This document shows positions 19,490 through 58,830 of a stretch of DNA of 64,000 bases, one piece after another. Source of the DNA: Sipunculus nudus (Eukaryota; Annelida; Sipuncula; Golfingiida; Sipunculidae); assembly GCA_026874595.1 (NCBI GenBank), contig CM049307.1:93100330-93164329 (forward strand), written 5' to 3'. The notes under the pieces were generated by a model, which saw nothing but the letters and a program-made list of their open reading frames with translations, searched no databases and had not been told where the DNA came from. A program made the translations under genes and the position numbers. The first letter of the stretch is position 1. Each line of letters begins with the position of its first letter.

Positions 19490-20060
19490 TTCAATTCATA
19501 GTGGGCAAAGTTCATACGCTGGGCAAGTGTATATTGTGAAATGACCGAGGCTTTAGACGGTCTGCTGTCCAGCTCAGGACCTCGTGGTGGTCTCGTCTCT
19601 TTTAGCTTTTCATCCTCTGGTAGGATCCCGATGACCTCTGGGAGGCAGACCAACGTGACTATTTTTCTTCTTCTTTTTGTTTGGGTGGTCCATGGTGTTG
19701 GGAGAATTTAAAACAAAGGCGTCTGTGTTCCTGCAGAGCGAGAGGCGTAATGTGTCATGTGCAGACAAAGCGAGGTTGGGAGGCGACCTGAGTGGCTATA
19801 CATGTCACCGTCCGCTAGAGGGGATTTCAATTGACGTCACTCACTATAAATACGAACGGTTCCCACTGTTACTGTGCCCTTTCGTTTAAGAGAGTCAGAT
19901 ACAAGCGCATCGCACCAGGTCACATCCCTTTCACACTCACATACTTAAAACTTAAACCTTATTCTGAGATAGTAATAATAATAATAATTATAATAATAAT
20001 AATAATAATAAACAATATGGTTCCCTTTACTGCCTTTTTTATGCATACCAATTTCAATAG
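19490..20060 (+). repeat. Inverted repeat block, left arm
   Basis: 19541-20060 is closely repeated in reverse orientation at 22622-23127; both begin with ATGACCGAGGCTTTAGAC and end with ATTTCAATAG. A 50-base piece containing TGGGCAAAGTTCATAC precedes this block here but follows it in the other copy, so the order is permuted. The minus strand starts an ATG reading MDHPNKKKKK that loses frame after the Lys run. A (TAA)n tract lies near its inner end. The intact partner frame resembles the start of Harbinger-type proteins only weakly. Confidence 0.7.
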
Positions 20061-22581: not shown

Positions 22582-23127
22582 TTTCACAATATACACTTGC
22601 CCAGGGTATGAACTTTGCCCACTATTGAAATTTGAATGCATAAAAAAGGCAGTAAAGGGAACCATCTTGTTTATTATTATTACTGTTATTATTATTATTA
22701 TCTCAGAATCAGGTTTAAGTTTTGAGTATGTGAGTGTGAAAGGGATGTGACCTGGTGCATTGCGCTTGTATCTGACTCTCTCAAACGAAAGGGCACAGTA
22801 ACATTGGGAACATTTCGTATTCAAAATGAGTGACGTCAAAGGAAATCCCCTCTAGCGGAAGGTGACCTGTATAGCCACTCAGGTCGCCTCCCAACCTCGC
22901 TTTGTCTGCACATGACACATTACGCTTCTCGCTCTGCAGATACACCGACGCCTTTGTTTTAAACTCTCCCAACACCATGGACCACCCAAACAAAAAGAAG
23001 AAGAAAATAGTCACGTTGGTCTGCCTCCCAGATGTCATCGGGATCCTACTAGAGGATGAAAAGCTAAAAGAGACGAGACCACCACAAGGTCCTGAGCTGG
23101 ACGGCAGATAGTCTAAAGCCTCGGTCA
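22582..23127 (-). repeat. Inverted repeat block, right arm
   Basis: This is the reverse-oriented partner of 19490-20060. In this copy the plus-strand frame at 22977-23111 stays open: ATG, then MDHPNKKKKKIVTLV, then LLEDEKLKETR, then stop. A basic start followed by a hydrophobic and acidic LLEDE stretch is seen at the N-terminus of many Harbinger-type proteins, but the similarity is weak. It joins directly to the CpG-rich MITE at 23115. Confidence 0.65.
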
Positions 23128-23655
23128 TACGGATACGGTCGCCGTACGGCGAGTGTTTTTGGCTATTCCTTGCGGTAGACGCACGGCAACTTTGCGTTTT
23201 TCAAAGGCCGCAGGGACTCCGCAACGACCGTAACTGACATAAGCGCAAGCGCTTAAGTTGATGCGGCGGCCGTGCATCAGTCAGCCACCTACGCGCTCCG
23301 TACGGGCACCGTACAGTACACGTACGAATGTCGTAGGATACCAGTGCGATTTAAACGCCTACTCGGCTACCCGAGAGACGAACGGCGTACCTGTGGTTGT
23401 CGTAAACGGTCTTTGCGGCTTCCGCAAGGTTAGCTTGCGGCATCCGCCGGGTTAGCTTGCTTCACCGTGCGAAGGCCGTGAGAATGAGCCCGTCGGCCGC
23501 ATAAGTTTTCATGCGGTTTCAAAAACCGAAGGGTGATCTACGTTGTGCGGCTGCCGCAGCAGGTTTTGGCCGAGGCTTAAGTATTCCTGCGGTCCCAAAA
23601 ACCTTACGATACCCTACGGTGTGCGGTGACCGCAGCGGGTTGTGACCGAGGCTTA
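23115..23655. mobile_element. CpG-rich MITE with AAGCCTCGGTCA ends
   Basis: The left end reads TAAAGCCTCGGTCATACGG. The right end, on the minus strand, reads ATAAGCCTCGGTCACAACCC, so the two form terminal inverted repeats. A second inner copy (TTAAGCCTCGGCC on the minus strand near 23560-23580) and repeated GTGCGG-GCCGCAG words lie inside. The interior is far richer in CpG than the rest of the window and has no long open frame. TAA/TTA-like flanks would fit Harbinger-type elements, but the target duplication is not clear. Confidence 0.6.
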
Positions 23656-24228: not shown

Positions 24229-25382
24229 ACAGCCCTAAAGTTTGTGATAACAATCCGGGAGAGGAAAGCCAATGACGAAAGGCATGCCTGTGGCTGTTAT
24301 TGAGCTGTGCACTGCATAATTCAACTGATTTCACTCAAGTGGAATATCTACGGGTTGTATCAAACTTATCAGAAACAAAAATCTCTGGATTAAGCGCAAA
24401 AATAATGCTCAAATTTGATTTCTTAATCATCATAACTTCGAATCATTTCCGCAATGTGTCATGGGGGGAATGTCGCAGTGATTTTGCAACTAGAGACTTT
24501 ATATTCCAGTTATATATGCAATCCACCAACTTAGCATACATGGATTTAGCGTTCGCCAACATTCCCGTGGTTACAAAGAGAATGTAGATAAACTAGCTTT
24601 TGCATCCTCACAGAGGATTCTTATCTTATGAATTTTTTTAGAATTCATTATTATGTACACAGGGTAAGCTAGAAATCACATAATTCATAAAGAGAAGGTA
24701 GGTGAATAGCTGGCTTTAAAGGGGCCAAATCACCTAAAAAACATGTTGAATTAACACGAAAAGTAGCTTCTTCCCTTTAAAATAATTTTGTACCTGCTAA
24801 AACAATGCGCTGAAACCGTTTGCTTACTCTTGTTAACGAGTGTTAAAAACAACACGTATCAGTCAGGAGATGCCCTAACTGACTTGGCCCCAAAAATGTA
24901 ATAAATGTTTCCACTGGCAGAAACCACGCCTGATGAGAATCGAAATCGGACCTCCGGTCACGCGGCCTTGTTTTGGTAAACAGACACACGTGGACTGTGT
25001 TAACAAACACGCAGACTCATAAAAAAGGCGTTAAACAGCGTACTGAGACTGCGGTACGAGGTACTGAGACTGTGTGTTGGGATGGTTTTGCTGGGAAACT
25101 AAAACAAAAGTGGACTGATAGTGTGAAAGAATAAGTAAAATGTTGCTTCTGATTATGTCCCTTTAAACAAAACAACATATTACGGTTATCAAGGTGACCT
25201 CCGAAACTGAAATGATATTATTCCCTGCGTGTAACCTTGCTGTCTACAAAAAAACCTAAGGATCAGTTTATAACTTTACATTTTTTTTTTGTACAGTTAC
25301 TAACGGACGGCTTAATTTAACTTCGTATTTTTACTGTTTTATTCAAAACTCTTGTAGACAGGATTCAAATACGAAGAAGATT
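23656..25382. other. No gene seen; short inverted repeat and (TA)n
   Basis: 23930-24004 is the inverted partner of 20192-20262. A (TA)n tract lies at 24150-24225. The remainder up to 25382 has no convincing open frame. It is where the promoter and true first codons of the hydroxyacid oxidase gene would be expected, but I cannot place them. Confidence 0.45.
24150..24225. repeat. (TA)n microsatellite
   Basis: About 76 bases of uninterrupted TA units. All the poly-Tyr/Ile frames over it are artefacts. Confidence 0.95.
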
Positions 25383-25529
25383 ATTCTCCTTCTGGTGAGC
25401 GTCATTGATTACAAAAAAATGTGCGAAACGAGTACTGAAAAGGAGCACGTGGCTCTACATGGGTTATGGCGTCACGGAGGAACTGATAACGATAACGAAG
25501 CCTCGTTTTCAAGGTATCGTCTGCGGCCT
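25383..25529 (+). pseudogene. Hydroxyacid oxidase exon 1, part before the insertion
   Basis: The frame reads LLVSVIDYKKMCETSTEK, later GGTDNDNEASFSRYRLRP. The beginning and end fit the family's LVSVDDY start and EAFSRYRLRP motif; the middle is poorly conserved. The true start codon is uncertain because an ATG at 25419 falls after the conserved VSVIDY. The last eight bases, TGCGGCCT, are the target site duplicated by the insertion. Confidence 0.75.
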
Positions 25530-26065
25530 TAGACTGGTACTTAGGTCTATTATGGCCCTCAGCCAAGCATAGAGACAGGCGTAAAACGCCATCTTAATTA
25601 CGCCCAGTTGCAACTCTTGACTTACCTGTAGACTGGTTCCAACTCCAGTATATACGCTCATACCGTTTGTCATAGACGTTCACGCGATCCTGGCTGATTA
25701 TCCGTGAAGATATATAATAAATTCCTTTTTTTAGTTATTTCTAGTTTTTAAATATTGAAAAATGAGTTGTTGCACAAAAAATTGAATGATGGATGTATAG
25801 ATAATACGATATACTGAATATTTGATATTGCACTGTAGGTGGTATTGGTTTATAATCAATATCTGTTAATGTAATCATAAATGTCACACGAAATGTTCGG
25901 CACACGTTTGGCAACTTCGCTGAGCAAACGAAATGCTTATTTTTATCATATAATACATACTGGAGTTGGAACCAGTCTTCCGGGAGTACCTAAGATGGCG
26001 TTGTACGCCATTTTCTATGCCTGGCCTAGCGCAGCGGTGCCATAATAGAGCGGGCTACCAGTACA
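25530..26065. mobile_element. 536-bp TIR element inserted in a coding exon, 8-bp TSD
   Basis: The exact 8-mer TGCGGCCT flanks it (25522-25529 and 26066-26073). The ends are long imperfect inverted repeats of more than 100 bases: the left begins TAGACTGGTACTTAGGTCTA and the right, on the minus strand, begins TGTACTGGTAGCCCGCTCTA. Both continue through CTATTATGGC and AACGCCATCTTA to AGACTGGTTCCAACTCCAGT. The 8-bp duplication and TAG-like terminus fit a non-autonomous hAT-type element, though P-type elements also make 8-bp duplications. No transposase frame is present. Skipping it and one duplicate leaves the oxidase frame continuous across the site. Confidence 0.88.
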
Positions 26066-26073
26066 TGCGGCCT

Positions 26074-26173
26074 CACCTTCTCCGAGGTGTAGCGGGCGCC
26101 ATGACCACCACAACCATACTGGGTCACGTGGTCTCATGTCCCATTGGTATTTCTCCAACAGCTACACAAAGGT
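26074..26173 (+). pseudogene. Hydroxyacid oxidase exon 1, part after the insertion
   Basis: It reads HLLRGVAGAMTTTTILGH, then PIGISPTATQ, and ends at a good donor, CAAAG|GTAATC. This is the family's RPRMLR...TTILG and PIG-SPTAMQ region. The frame is uninterrupted. Confidence 0.85.
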
Positions 26174-26671
26174 AATCGAACCTATGTTTGGAGTTTTTTT
26201 TTTAATTTCCTAACCCGACCTACGCGCAGGGATAAAGTCTATTGTACACAATGAATAATCTCTGCTGGCAGTGACGGATTAAAGCATGTTTAATCTGACA
26301 TTATGACTCAGTCACCGTCTCACTTGTATTATCAGTAAATGTAAACCACGTGTGACTCTCGATCTATTGGCCCCCATGTCTTGTATGTCAGCATGCAATA
26401 ATGGTTATCCCAAAATTCATGCATGTAATCCTTTTGCATAATGTTGAAATGCCACAATAAGTGTCACTATCACTGTGCATTTAATTACATATATAACAAT
26501 TGTGAAACAGCTGTATCACGTAAACCGTCCACGGATATTACAATGCAAATAGATCATTAGTTTTATCTATATATAAAATATATTTCATGGACAAATTCCT
26601 TTTGTTGGTTGTATTTGGTATGGATGTTGTCGAAACATACTGAATTTAATTATTTTTCATAAATTACGCTT

Positions 26672-27135
26672 CTCATGCGGAAAAGATCGATTTCGGCTTT
26701 AAAAAAAATGTGATCGCAGCTTTAAGATCTTATTCTGACATCAAAATGGAACAAATCGTAGCAACGTCCCCTGGTGGCATAAAGTGGCAACAGTGCAAGC
26801 TGTTCAAAGATCGGGAAGTAACGTTACATTTTGTTAGGCGCGCAGAGCAGTCCGGATTTTTCGGTTTGGTTTTCAACAGTTGATCGTTCAGTTCACGGCG
26901 TGTCTTACAACTTTGCCAGGGGTTGGATCACGTGGTCTGACAAAAGTCTCTTGTCCAATTACCCTGACAAGCTTAAGGGCAAAGAAGATGATACCAATCC
27001 AGGGCAAGACTGGAACGCGTTGAAATGGTTACGGACCCAGACTAGTCTACCAATAATTGTCAAAGGAATTCTCCGAGGAGAAGACGCAAAATTAGCGATA
27101 AGGCTGGGTAACACAGATGGATTAATCATTTAAAG
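26672..27135 (+). pseudogene. Hydroxyacid oxidase exon 2, frameshifted
   Basis: Frame one runs from about 26672 through NVIAALRSYSDIKM, then FKDREVTLHFVRRAEQSGF, to a TGA at 26881. The match continues in another frame with TVDRSVHGVSYN, then KWLRTQTSLPIIVKGILRGE, to a TAA at 27131. The flavin-contacting Lys of VKG is kept, but the following VSNHGGR stretch is missing or scrambled. The 5' boundary is uncertain; a CAG at 26720 would give the wrong phase. Confidence 0.8.
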
Positions 27136-27152: not shown

Positions 27153-27214
27153 AAAGTCTGTCAATGGAAAAGAATGTTTTGAATTCACAGGATTCTTTTC
27201 CATTGACAGACTTT
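27153..27214. repeat. Perfect 23-bp inverted repeat (hairpin)
   Basis: 27153-27175 and 27192-27214 are exact reverse complements with a 16-base loop. It lies just after the last legible codon of hydroxyacid oxidase exon 2, in what would be the intron. It could be a tiny palindromic insertion or a hairpin RNA; neither is shown. Confidence 0.85.
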
Positions 27215-27438: not shown

Positions 27439-27569
27439 GTTGCTTGACGGTGTTCCAGCGACCATCGACGTCCTGAGTGAAGTTTTAGCGGCGGTTAACG
27501 GAAGCGTGGAGGTTAACATGGACGGAGGGATACGGAGGGGCACGGCCGTCGCTAAAGCAATTGATCTAG
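27439..27569 (+). pseudogene. Hydroxyacid oxidase exon 3
   Basis: It follows acceptor CTGTCCAG and reads [19 protein letters not shown], then [13 protein letters not shown] and AIDLG, ending CTAG|GTTGGA. The frame is open and the match to the family's FMN-phosphate-binding DGG-RRG motif is clear. The exon is 131 bases and in phase with exon 4. Confidence 0.85.
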
Positions 27570-28473
27570 GTTGGAGTAAATAGCTGAGATATGTTCAGTC
27601 ATGATTAACCATAGCGATGGGTCTTTTTCTCCTGTCCTTACATTTGGGCAGACCATATAATAGACGCCATTACAGCTCGAACGGTCAATCATGAGAAGTT
27701 CTGATAGGATCGTCAGGAATTTGAAGCTAGGTCCATGTTACCTATATTCTAATTGCAAGATGGAATATTATTTCGACCACTGATAACTAAAATTATGCCT
27801 TTGTCAGCGTTCAAGGTGGAAACATGTTTCATAGTCAGCATAGTCGCACAGTCACACTTGTCCGGTGGTCCGAGGATGTGGACCAAATATTGATGCCAGT
27901 GGACCGATGGCGCTAAATTTGTATTTGCACAATTTACTGTTTTTTTTGTAGTGGTCAACAATAGCCAGTGGCTACTACAAGAGCCAATTTTAATTCTATT
28001 GGTCATACAGCTTTATAATTTGTACGTCCAGTCGGACATCTAGACCCCCAGAAACGTTAATCTTGGTCAAATTTTCGAGTTCACGAAAGCATTTTAAGGA
28101 ATGAATATGATTATCAATATATAATGCACATAATGTTAATGCTATTAGATACTTTAATGACTCATGTTTACATTTGTTATTTCTACGTTTATCTCTTTGG
28201 TTTCGTTTACATAATCTCAACATCACCCAAAACACTGTCATATAAAATATAATGTTAAAGCAAACTATTTTCTTTGGAGGTTATACATTGAGCATTTATT
28301 CTACGTTTATTTTATTTAATCCTATAATGAGGTTTACTTATATTGATTATTCACATGTGACATCTTAAACTAAATATTTCACATTGTTATTTCTGTATCG
28401 TTTTAGATGATTAGCTTGTTTAGAAATTTGTAACGAATCTTGAATATTTTAAAGTTATTTTTGTACCTAACAG

Positions 28474-28703
28474 GTGCCCGGGAAGTGTTTATCGGACGTC
28501 CAGTCTGGTACGGACTCGTCCACAGCCGTAGGAAGGGGGTACAGAATATCCTTGATATTCTGAAGACGGAATTTCTGACTACCATGCAACTTCTTGGAGC
28601 TGACCTCCCTCACAAGCTGGACTGGTCCAACATCCTCACACCCAAATCATGTGTTGGAATGACCTGTCATGTTTTATTTTATCATAAAAACAGTATCTGT
28701 TGA
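28474..28703 (+). pseudogene. Hydroxyacid oxidase last exon
   Basis: It follows acceptor CCTAACAG and reads AREVFIGRPVWYGLVHSRRK, then GVQNILDILKTEF, MQLLGADLPHKLDWSNIL, and a short tail to a TGA at 28701. The GRP-WGL and GV--VL-IL--EF motifs are typical. The tail ends NSIC and not with a peroxisomal SKL-type tripeptide. Confidence 0.85.
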
Positions 28704-37135: not shown

Positions 37136-38619
37136 GGTGACCTGTGCATCCGCCACCGTGCATGTCAACCGTAGTACTCAATAAATAGGGCGTCCCTTTG
37201 ATGACTTTCATGTGTAGCAACACTCTCATAGGTCGCTTGTAATTTAGTTTATGCCACTTACTCCGATTGGCTGGCTTTCTCGTGTTTGTCAATTATATTT
37301 GTGAATGATTGTCTCTCGGTGCGAGGAATCAAAACTTGATTTAGGCATAGCGGCATATGGATAATCAAATATTATGAGCTTAAATAGACCTAATGTTTTT
37401 ATTGGGATGTTTATAGAACTGATAGGTTAAATTTGTCGTCTCAGTGTCCAAATAAACATTTAGTTACAAAATGTTGTCATAATTGATACTGCATTTTCAA
37501 AGGACTATACCAAACTAGCGGAATAATGCCGATGGCATTGTTGGTATATATTAACGGGAGAATGTGTCAAAGGGTACCGGAAACACTGTCACCTCCAATT
37601 TAATTTTAAATAAATTGAAGTATCAAAATATTCTTATGGAAAAAAAGCTAATATAAAGGGAGGGATTGTAAAGTGATCGTTCTCATTGCAATGGGCATTG
37701 ACATGCCTCTGTTTTAGTCCCCGGGATACTCCAATTAATTGCAAAATGTTAGTATACTTTTGGACATTAGAAAATGGCTGTCCTAAGTTGCACAGCCGGT
37801 AGTTACCTGCAGGGCAGAACTACCGGCTGTGCCTCTTAAGGCTGCCATTTTCTAATGTCCCAATGTATACTGTAATTAAAAATTTAACCTGAGATAAACG
37901 ATAAAATTTTTGCAATTAAATAGATGTTTCCCGGGGACTAGCAAATCGACCCCTACAATGGTAAAATTTTAACACACTTGTACACACATGCCGTCGTTCA
38001 GGATAAAGCCTGTTGGTATTTCTTTTTTATATATCTTTCAACTTAGGCCAGAATTAAAGTTTATTCACCCGTATAGCTAACCAACTATTCTTAAATGAGA
38101 ATTTATCCTGTAGCTAAAACCGACTTTAGTAAGATATTTAGGTTGTCTCTTTCTTCGGTAGGGTTCTAAATTAGCAAAAATTGCAAAAGGGAAATTATGG
38201 CAAAAATTAAACCTACGTGAATAAGTTACTGATCTGCACAGGAGGAAGGTCAGATATTAAAGCCTTATTGACATTTCATGTATGTTATCCACGCCACCAC
38301 GCTTATAGATCTTAAGAAGAAGGGCGACATTTTTTTTATAGAAAATAATTTTTTTATATATTCCGTTAATCAAATATTGACACTATAAATTATATCAGAT
38401 CTTTCAAGTATCTGCCTTTAGGAGACAACATTTTCGATACTTGGTTTCGATGTTCCTTATCAAAGTATTCGCTTTTGGTACGCCTATTAAATAATCTATT
38501 CGATAATGGATAAACTATGTGTAAGTAACTGATCAAGAAGTAAAATGTATTCCTCGCGAAAAAATTGAATATCGCAAAAAATAGCCTCGCGAATATAAAG
38601 CCAACCACAGTATACATGC
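37136..38619. repeat. Segmental duplication, intervening part of unit A
   Basis: 37580-37760 resembles 59535-59740 (GGGGTACC-GAAA, then AAGGG-G-GATTGTAAAGTGATNG, then GACATGCCT). No gene is seen. A minus-strand frame at 38390-38617 is Phe- and Leu-rich and spans CGCGAA-type repeat words also seen near 6515-6550. Confidence 0.5.
37751..37871. repeat. Long hairpin, about 54-nt arms
   Basis: 37751-37804 and 37818-37871 are near-perfect reverse complements, with a central ACCTGCAGGGCAG. The arms contain GGACATTAGAAAATGGC and CACAGCCGGTAGTT. The related segment near 59700 lacks the hairpin, so it was probably inserted here. A very small MITE or a pre-miRNA-like hairpin are both possible. Confidence 0.75.
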
Positions 38620-58740: not shown

Positions 58741-58830
58741 TGCAAAATTGCAGAATTCAGGTCAGAACTACGAAACAAGACCCAACTTCCGATTGTCGCA
58801 AAAGAGATGCTCAAAGCTAAAGACGCCTAG
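58741..58830 (+). pseudogene. Possible second hydroxyacid oxidase exon fragment
   Basis: The frame reads LRNKTQLPIVAKEMLKAKDA and then TAG. It lines up with LRTQTSLPIIVKGILRGEDA of the pseudogene at 26.7-27.1 kb and with the family motif LPIV-KGIL--EDA. The key Gly after Lys is Glu here, and the frame stops straight after. An acceptor-like TTGCAG precedes it. Only about 20 residues match, so chance is possible, but the density of identical positions favours a degraded exon. Confidence 0.45.

Follow-up and report, generated by a model that had tools for sequence, protein, structure and literature searches.

Results and discussion

The interrupted oxidase gene

The window analysed here is a stretch of 64,000 nucleotides (C2:93100330-93164329) in a host genome of 1,426,538,692 bp and 153 contigs. 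It contains a broken 2-hydroxyacid oxidase gene on the forward strand. Five separate pieces of the gene match the Pfam family FMN_dh, and the exons combined have human HAO1 as their best PDB match (E 4.1e-55). The first coding exon found is split into a 5′ part (25404..25529), which corresponds to HAO1 residues 9-51, and a 3′ part (26074..26171), which ends at the donor AAG/GTAATC. A decayed second exon (26655..27133), a third exon (27439..27571) and a fourth exon (AREVFIGRPVWYGLV...; 28474..28689) follow, and the four exon pieces align along HAO1 residues 9-350.

Unlike HAO1, the window copy is broken in several places. Frameshift-aware alignment to HAO1 locates two frameshifts in the 5′ part of the interrupted exon (+1 near 25419, -1 near 25489) and a further one in exon 2 (+1 near 26870). 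The frameshift near 25489 appears in paralog alignments as a 4-base gap. The same alignments show the start of exon 2 to be heavily decayed, with an 8- to 9-base gap; its 5′ part is broken, and a TAA is found at 27131. At the end of exon 2, the active-site SNHGxR (Asn-His-Gly) segment is absent from the window copy in both the HAO1 and the paralog alignments, whereas it is present in paralogs L081, L082, L083, L084, L089 and L092. The counterparts of HAO1 W110, Y132 and R167 are replaced and the segment with H260 is missing, all four being positions that we take to have catalytic roles. Some of these four positions differ in the paralogs too, with those equivalent to W110 and Y132 being variable among them. 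A 62-nt near-perfect hairpin (-36.4 kcal/mol over 91 nt, z -7.2) is located at 27153-27214, between exons 2 and 3.

The inserted element

Between the two parts of the interrupted exon lies a 536-bp non-autonomous element (25530..26065, forward strand), which starts TAGACTGGTAC and finishes GCTACCAGTACA. It has a 5′ terminal inverted arm of ~121 nt (25530..25650, forward strand) and a 3′ terminal inverted arm of ~108 nt (25958..26065, reverse strand), the latter ending CCAGTACA, for which the family version is CCAGTCTA. Pairing between the arms is imperfect. A first-pass annotation of this DNA had described a 536-bp element with inverted arms of more than 100 bases, and had read the peptide EASFSRYRLRP as continuing in the same frame with HLLRGV on the far side of the insert; both descriptions are borne out. 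The joined peptide gives a gapless match to FMN_dh (E 6.5e-10, profile positions 28-70) and also matches human HAO1 across the insertion site. The longest stop-to-stop frame fully within the element spans 82 aa (25741-25989, reverse strand). Together with one duplicate the element amounts to 544 bp, i.e., a multiple of three plus one, and its first three bases are the in-frame TAG in which the upstream frame (25260-25532) terminates.

The element is flanked by two forward-strand copies of TGCGGCCT, at 25522..25529 and 26066..26073. This sequence has no other occurrence on the forward strand of the window and a single one on the reverse strand, at 23205. Identical 8-mers spaced 300-900 bases apart have a frequency of 9.4e-5 per position in the window, or 5e-7 when at least six of the bases are G+C. 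At the exact spacing of 544, however, identical 8-mers number 6 among 63,448 positions, and the TGCGGCCT duplication alone is therefore not decisive. What is decisive for an insertion are the inverted arms and the peptide join, along with the family copies and the paralog data presented below. The locus is almost certainly a MITE insertion in a coding exon of a decayed tandem duplicate of a 2-hydroxyacid oxidase gene.

Such an insertion is an ordinary and well-known kind of event. In wheat, a coding exon is likewise interrupted, and its frame shortened, by a miniature transposon-like element, Mariam, though the account in PMC6824096 concerns a plant and describes an element that lacks inverted repeats and is present in very few copies.

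Other inverted structures are also present in the window. A 121-nt foldback-like palindrome, 83% self-complementary, is located at 37751-37871, and an inverted pair of ~520 bp, 91% identical, occupies 19541-20060 and 22622-23128.

The empty site in paralogs

The nearest paralog, L081, is located ~114 kb downstream and is ~90% identical to the window copy over most of exon 2. In L081 the pieces that flank the insert adjoin exactly, leaving the empty site intact as TATCGTCTGCGGCCTCAAC, and in paralog L082 the empty site is TATCGTCTGCGGCCACGC. A match was obtained from 42 of 50 locus records, all 42 of which span the insertion site without a gap. Twenty-one of them come from distinct chromosomal genes, namely L062, L077 and all but one of the 20 loci L081-L100; a further 12 are duplicate records of those genes, and nine are small contigs with a bacterial-looking gene. 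With these uninterrupted paralogous exons and a further 40 long copies of the element, the earlier identification of a non-autonomous transposon in a hydroxyacid oxidase coding exon is upheld. The locus can serve as a worked example, a single genome providing the filled site (in the window), its empty counterpart (in the nearest paralog) and dozens of sister copies.

The nine small contigs (L053-L061, on C61, C62, C72, C74, C75, C77, C82, C83 and C89) all carry the same long frame with ATP-grasp-like and FMN_dh parts. They may derive from a symbiont or a contaminant, the frame reading like a bacterial gene.

The MITE family and its target duplications

In a genome-wide search, as the first-pass annotation had proposed, an initial screen for the element yielded 1437 candidates, and scoring was carried out on the best 40. 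These 40 were taken with their flanks from 41 other long matches, a truncated neighbour on C7 being left out, and they are the best scorers by similarity to the window copy, i.e., a non-random sample. Two of them, L025 and L030, have flanks in common and count as one event. Nearly all of these best 40 of the 1437 start TAGACTGGTAC and finish GTACCAGTCTA, some with single-base departures. Their consensus is 538 bp long, with arms of 123 and 110 nt.

Across the best 40 of the 1437, the target duplication is exactly 9 bp in 25 copies, exactly 10 bp in two and imperfect in 11 (one or two mismatches at 9 bp, or one at 10), while two copies have no direct duplication at their ends and none has an exact 8-bp duplication. 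The family has the features of a MITE, being short, with inverted repeats at both ends, many copies, and exact or near-exact duplications in 38/40 (best 40 of 1437). The perfect 8-bp duplication reported earlier thus stands for the window copy, which has TGCGGCCT at both ends, but not as the usual length for the family, which is 9 bp (25/40, best 40 of 1437). It had also been proposed that copies lacking 8-bp duplications would refute an insertion; this is literally what the 40 copies look like, none having exactly 8 bp, and the insertion is real nonetheless.

The 8 bp seen in the window would most simply be a decayed or variant duplication. The original would most simply have been 9 bp (TGCGGCCTC or CTGCGGCCT), with the register lost at one junction, or else the window copy may represent a rare 8-bp case. 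The true duplication length is evident from the sister copies, and relying on a single copy, whose 8 bp might point to hAT, can be misleading.

The same MITE is found three times, end to end, at C7:81976763-81978399. One of these copies has the duplication GGCGTACAA, which also occurs within the element, suggesting that one C7 copy inserted into another. An exact scan of IMG/VR with an arm 18-mer returned two contigs in which only an 18-19-base stretch was significant, and these were taken as chance matches.

Superfamily affiliation

MULEs are described as having target duplications of 8-11 bp and repeats of 14-500 bp (PMC6446971). The present family resembles non-autonomous MULEs in its inverted repeats of ~110-123 nt and in its duplications of 9 bp (25/40) or 10 bp (2/40) among the best 40 of the 1437. 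It differs from MULEs in that its ends begin TAG... and are not G/C-rich, and in having no evident transposase inside; in the account of arthropod MULEs in PMC13359780, the first three bases of most ends are conserved G/C. The element thus fits a Mutator-like anatomy, and we regard it as a MULE candidate.

An 8-bp duplication, as in the window copy, would instead suggest a MITE of the hAT, P or Merlin superfamilies. The target duplication is given as 8 bp for hAT (PMC3942097), as 7-8 bp for Galileo of the P superfamily (PMC4168063), and as 8-9 bp for Merlin, whose ends are in GG (PMC8101967). With exactly 8 bp in 0/40 copies (best 40 of 1437), we consider such an origin very improbable. Taken singly, hAT was rejected on that same absence of 8-bp duplications (0/40, best 40 of 1437), the P superfamily on family duplications of 9-10 bp, and Merlin on ends that start TAG rather than with GG.

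The genome contains 131 matches to PF10551 (MULE transposase). Two of these 131 loci were examined, one drawn from the 44 matches with a 607-aa frame and the other a top scorer, and neither of the two has the MITE ends or a convincing long inverted repeat. The 607-aa open frame recurs in 44 of the 131 matches, most with identical scores (e.g., L101, C10:28515900-28520100). This uniformity suggests a recent spread of that MULE transposase family.

Timing of the insertion and loss of the gene

We propose that one oxidase copy received a member of the MITE family, by cut-and-paste transposition, in the first of its coding exons that was found, the transposase presumably coming in trans from a Mutator-like element. 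By itself, the insertion would truncate the protein, the 544 bp shifting the frame and the TAG following at once, and could in this way have inactivated the gene. It postdates the split of the window copy from L081, which keeps the empty site, and the window copy has decayed since the insertion or was decaying already.

Since the L081 split, the branch leading to the window copy has acquired 58 changes in 903 sites, distributed 15:15:28 over the codon positions. They comprise 25 synonymous and 33 non-synonymous changes with no stop. Against a neutral expectation of 24-27% synonymous, the excess of synonymous changes is significant (p 0.0009-0.006), while the lack of stops is unremarkable (p 0.12-0.14). 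The window copy was therefore subject to some selection following the split, and its death came later. Two introns have diverged by 41/267 and 21/216 on the same branch, intron 1 being left out for its poor alignment.

The element in the window differs from the 40-copy consensus at 44/535 positions (8.2%), compared with 3.7-6.3% for the 40 themselves, and 21 of these 44 differences (3.9%) are private to it, the highest number of any copy compared (0-19 in the others); these figures are rough, since the 40 copies were picked for similarity to the window copy. Intron divergence exceeds the 3.9-8.2% of the element, and the insertion therefore falls within that branch. Dating from the copy's own arms was rejected, as the arms of the family consensus themselves differ from each other.

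The first-pass annotation took the insertion to explain the loss of the gene, which our results do not sustain. The gene may have died of something other than the insertion, as the same copy has other frameshifts, a lost catalytic segment and a decayed exon 2 start, any of which may have come before or after it. Moreover, only one member of a large tandem family is interrupted, and other paralogs remain. That the element landed as a passenger in a gene that had already become a pseudogene has in our judgement a little under an even chance. The at least three other frameshifts, the decayed exon 2 start and the lost catalytic segment all favour a prior death, as does the state of L081, which is also broken, by different lesions at other places than in the window copy, suggesting that this subclade decays readily. 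Conversely, the 25:33 ratio of synonymous to non-synonymous changes argues that the window copy was selected for part of the time, and paralog alignments revealed no lesion common to it and L081. The presence of a transposon in a broken gene does not by itself identify the transposon as the cause of the damage.

A different possibility is that the element behaves as a new Introner-like intron, spliced from the mRNA, and never inactivated the gene. Introners, as described in PMC9860276, resemble the element in being non-autonomous and located within coding exons and in that they can have inverted repeats and target duplications; in one group of them, the transcript becomes 12 bases longer. A comparable outcome can be drawn here by pairing the AG at 26048 with AAG/GTATCG, a donor-like sequence at 25514; the frame would be kept and YRLRP would change to AGYQYMRP, a net gain of three residues. 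The element differs from Introners in that no tested splice pair restores both frame and protein, and in the in-frame TAG at its first base. None of the nine GT-AG pairs tested around it (open and phase-compatible) restores the ancestral peptide, the tested donors score at most 0.2, compared with 3.1 for the genuine donor at 26172, and the pyrimidine content upstream of the AG at 26048 is 0.47. The splice-pair scan also ruled out exact removal of the element as an ordinary intron. Splicing would in any case be no rescue for a gene with other frameshifts and without its catalytic segment, and we regard this explanation as extremely unlikely. Equally far-fetched is a narrower version, in which the MITE brought an intron at 25514-26048 that removes nearly the whole element, and the gene outlived the insertion to die later of other lesions. 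If true, splicing of 25514-26048 would mean that a transposon gave rise to an intron in this tandem family of oxidases. A MITE insertion in a decayed duplicate remains our preferred interpretation.

The tandem oxidase family

Matches to FMN_dh occur, exon by exon, at 135 places in the genome, many of them in tandem clusters on C2 near 57.4-58.7, 75.95-76.01, 92.67-92.75, 93.24 and 93.94-94.07 Mb. They represent a large tandem expansion of FMN-dependent hydroxyacid oxidases, several copies of which contain stops. A search of the literature on oxidase duplication in molluscs found nothing. We consider this large and partly decaying family to be of more interest than the insertion. Within the window, a short stretch at 58768-58827 resembles LRRLTSLPIVAKGIL of HAO1 (E 0.12, no Pfam match) and is possibly the relic of another oxidase copy.
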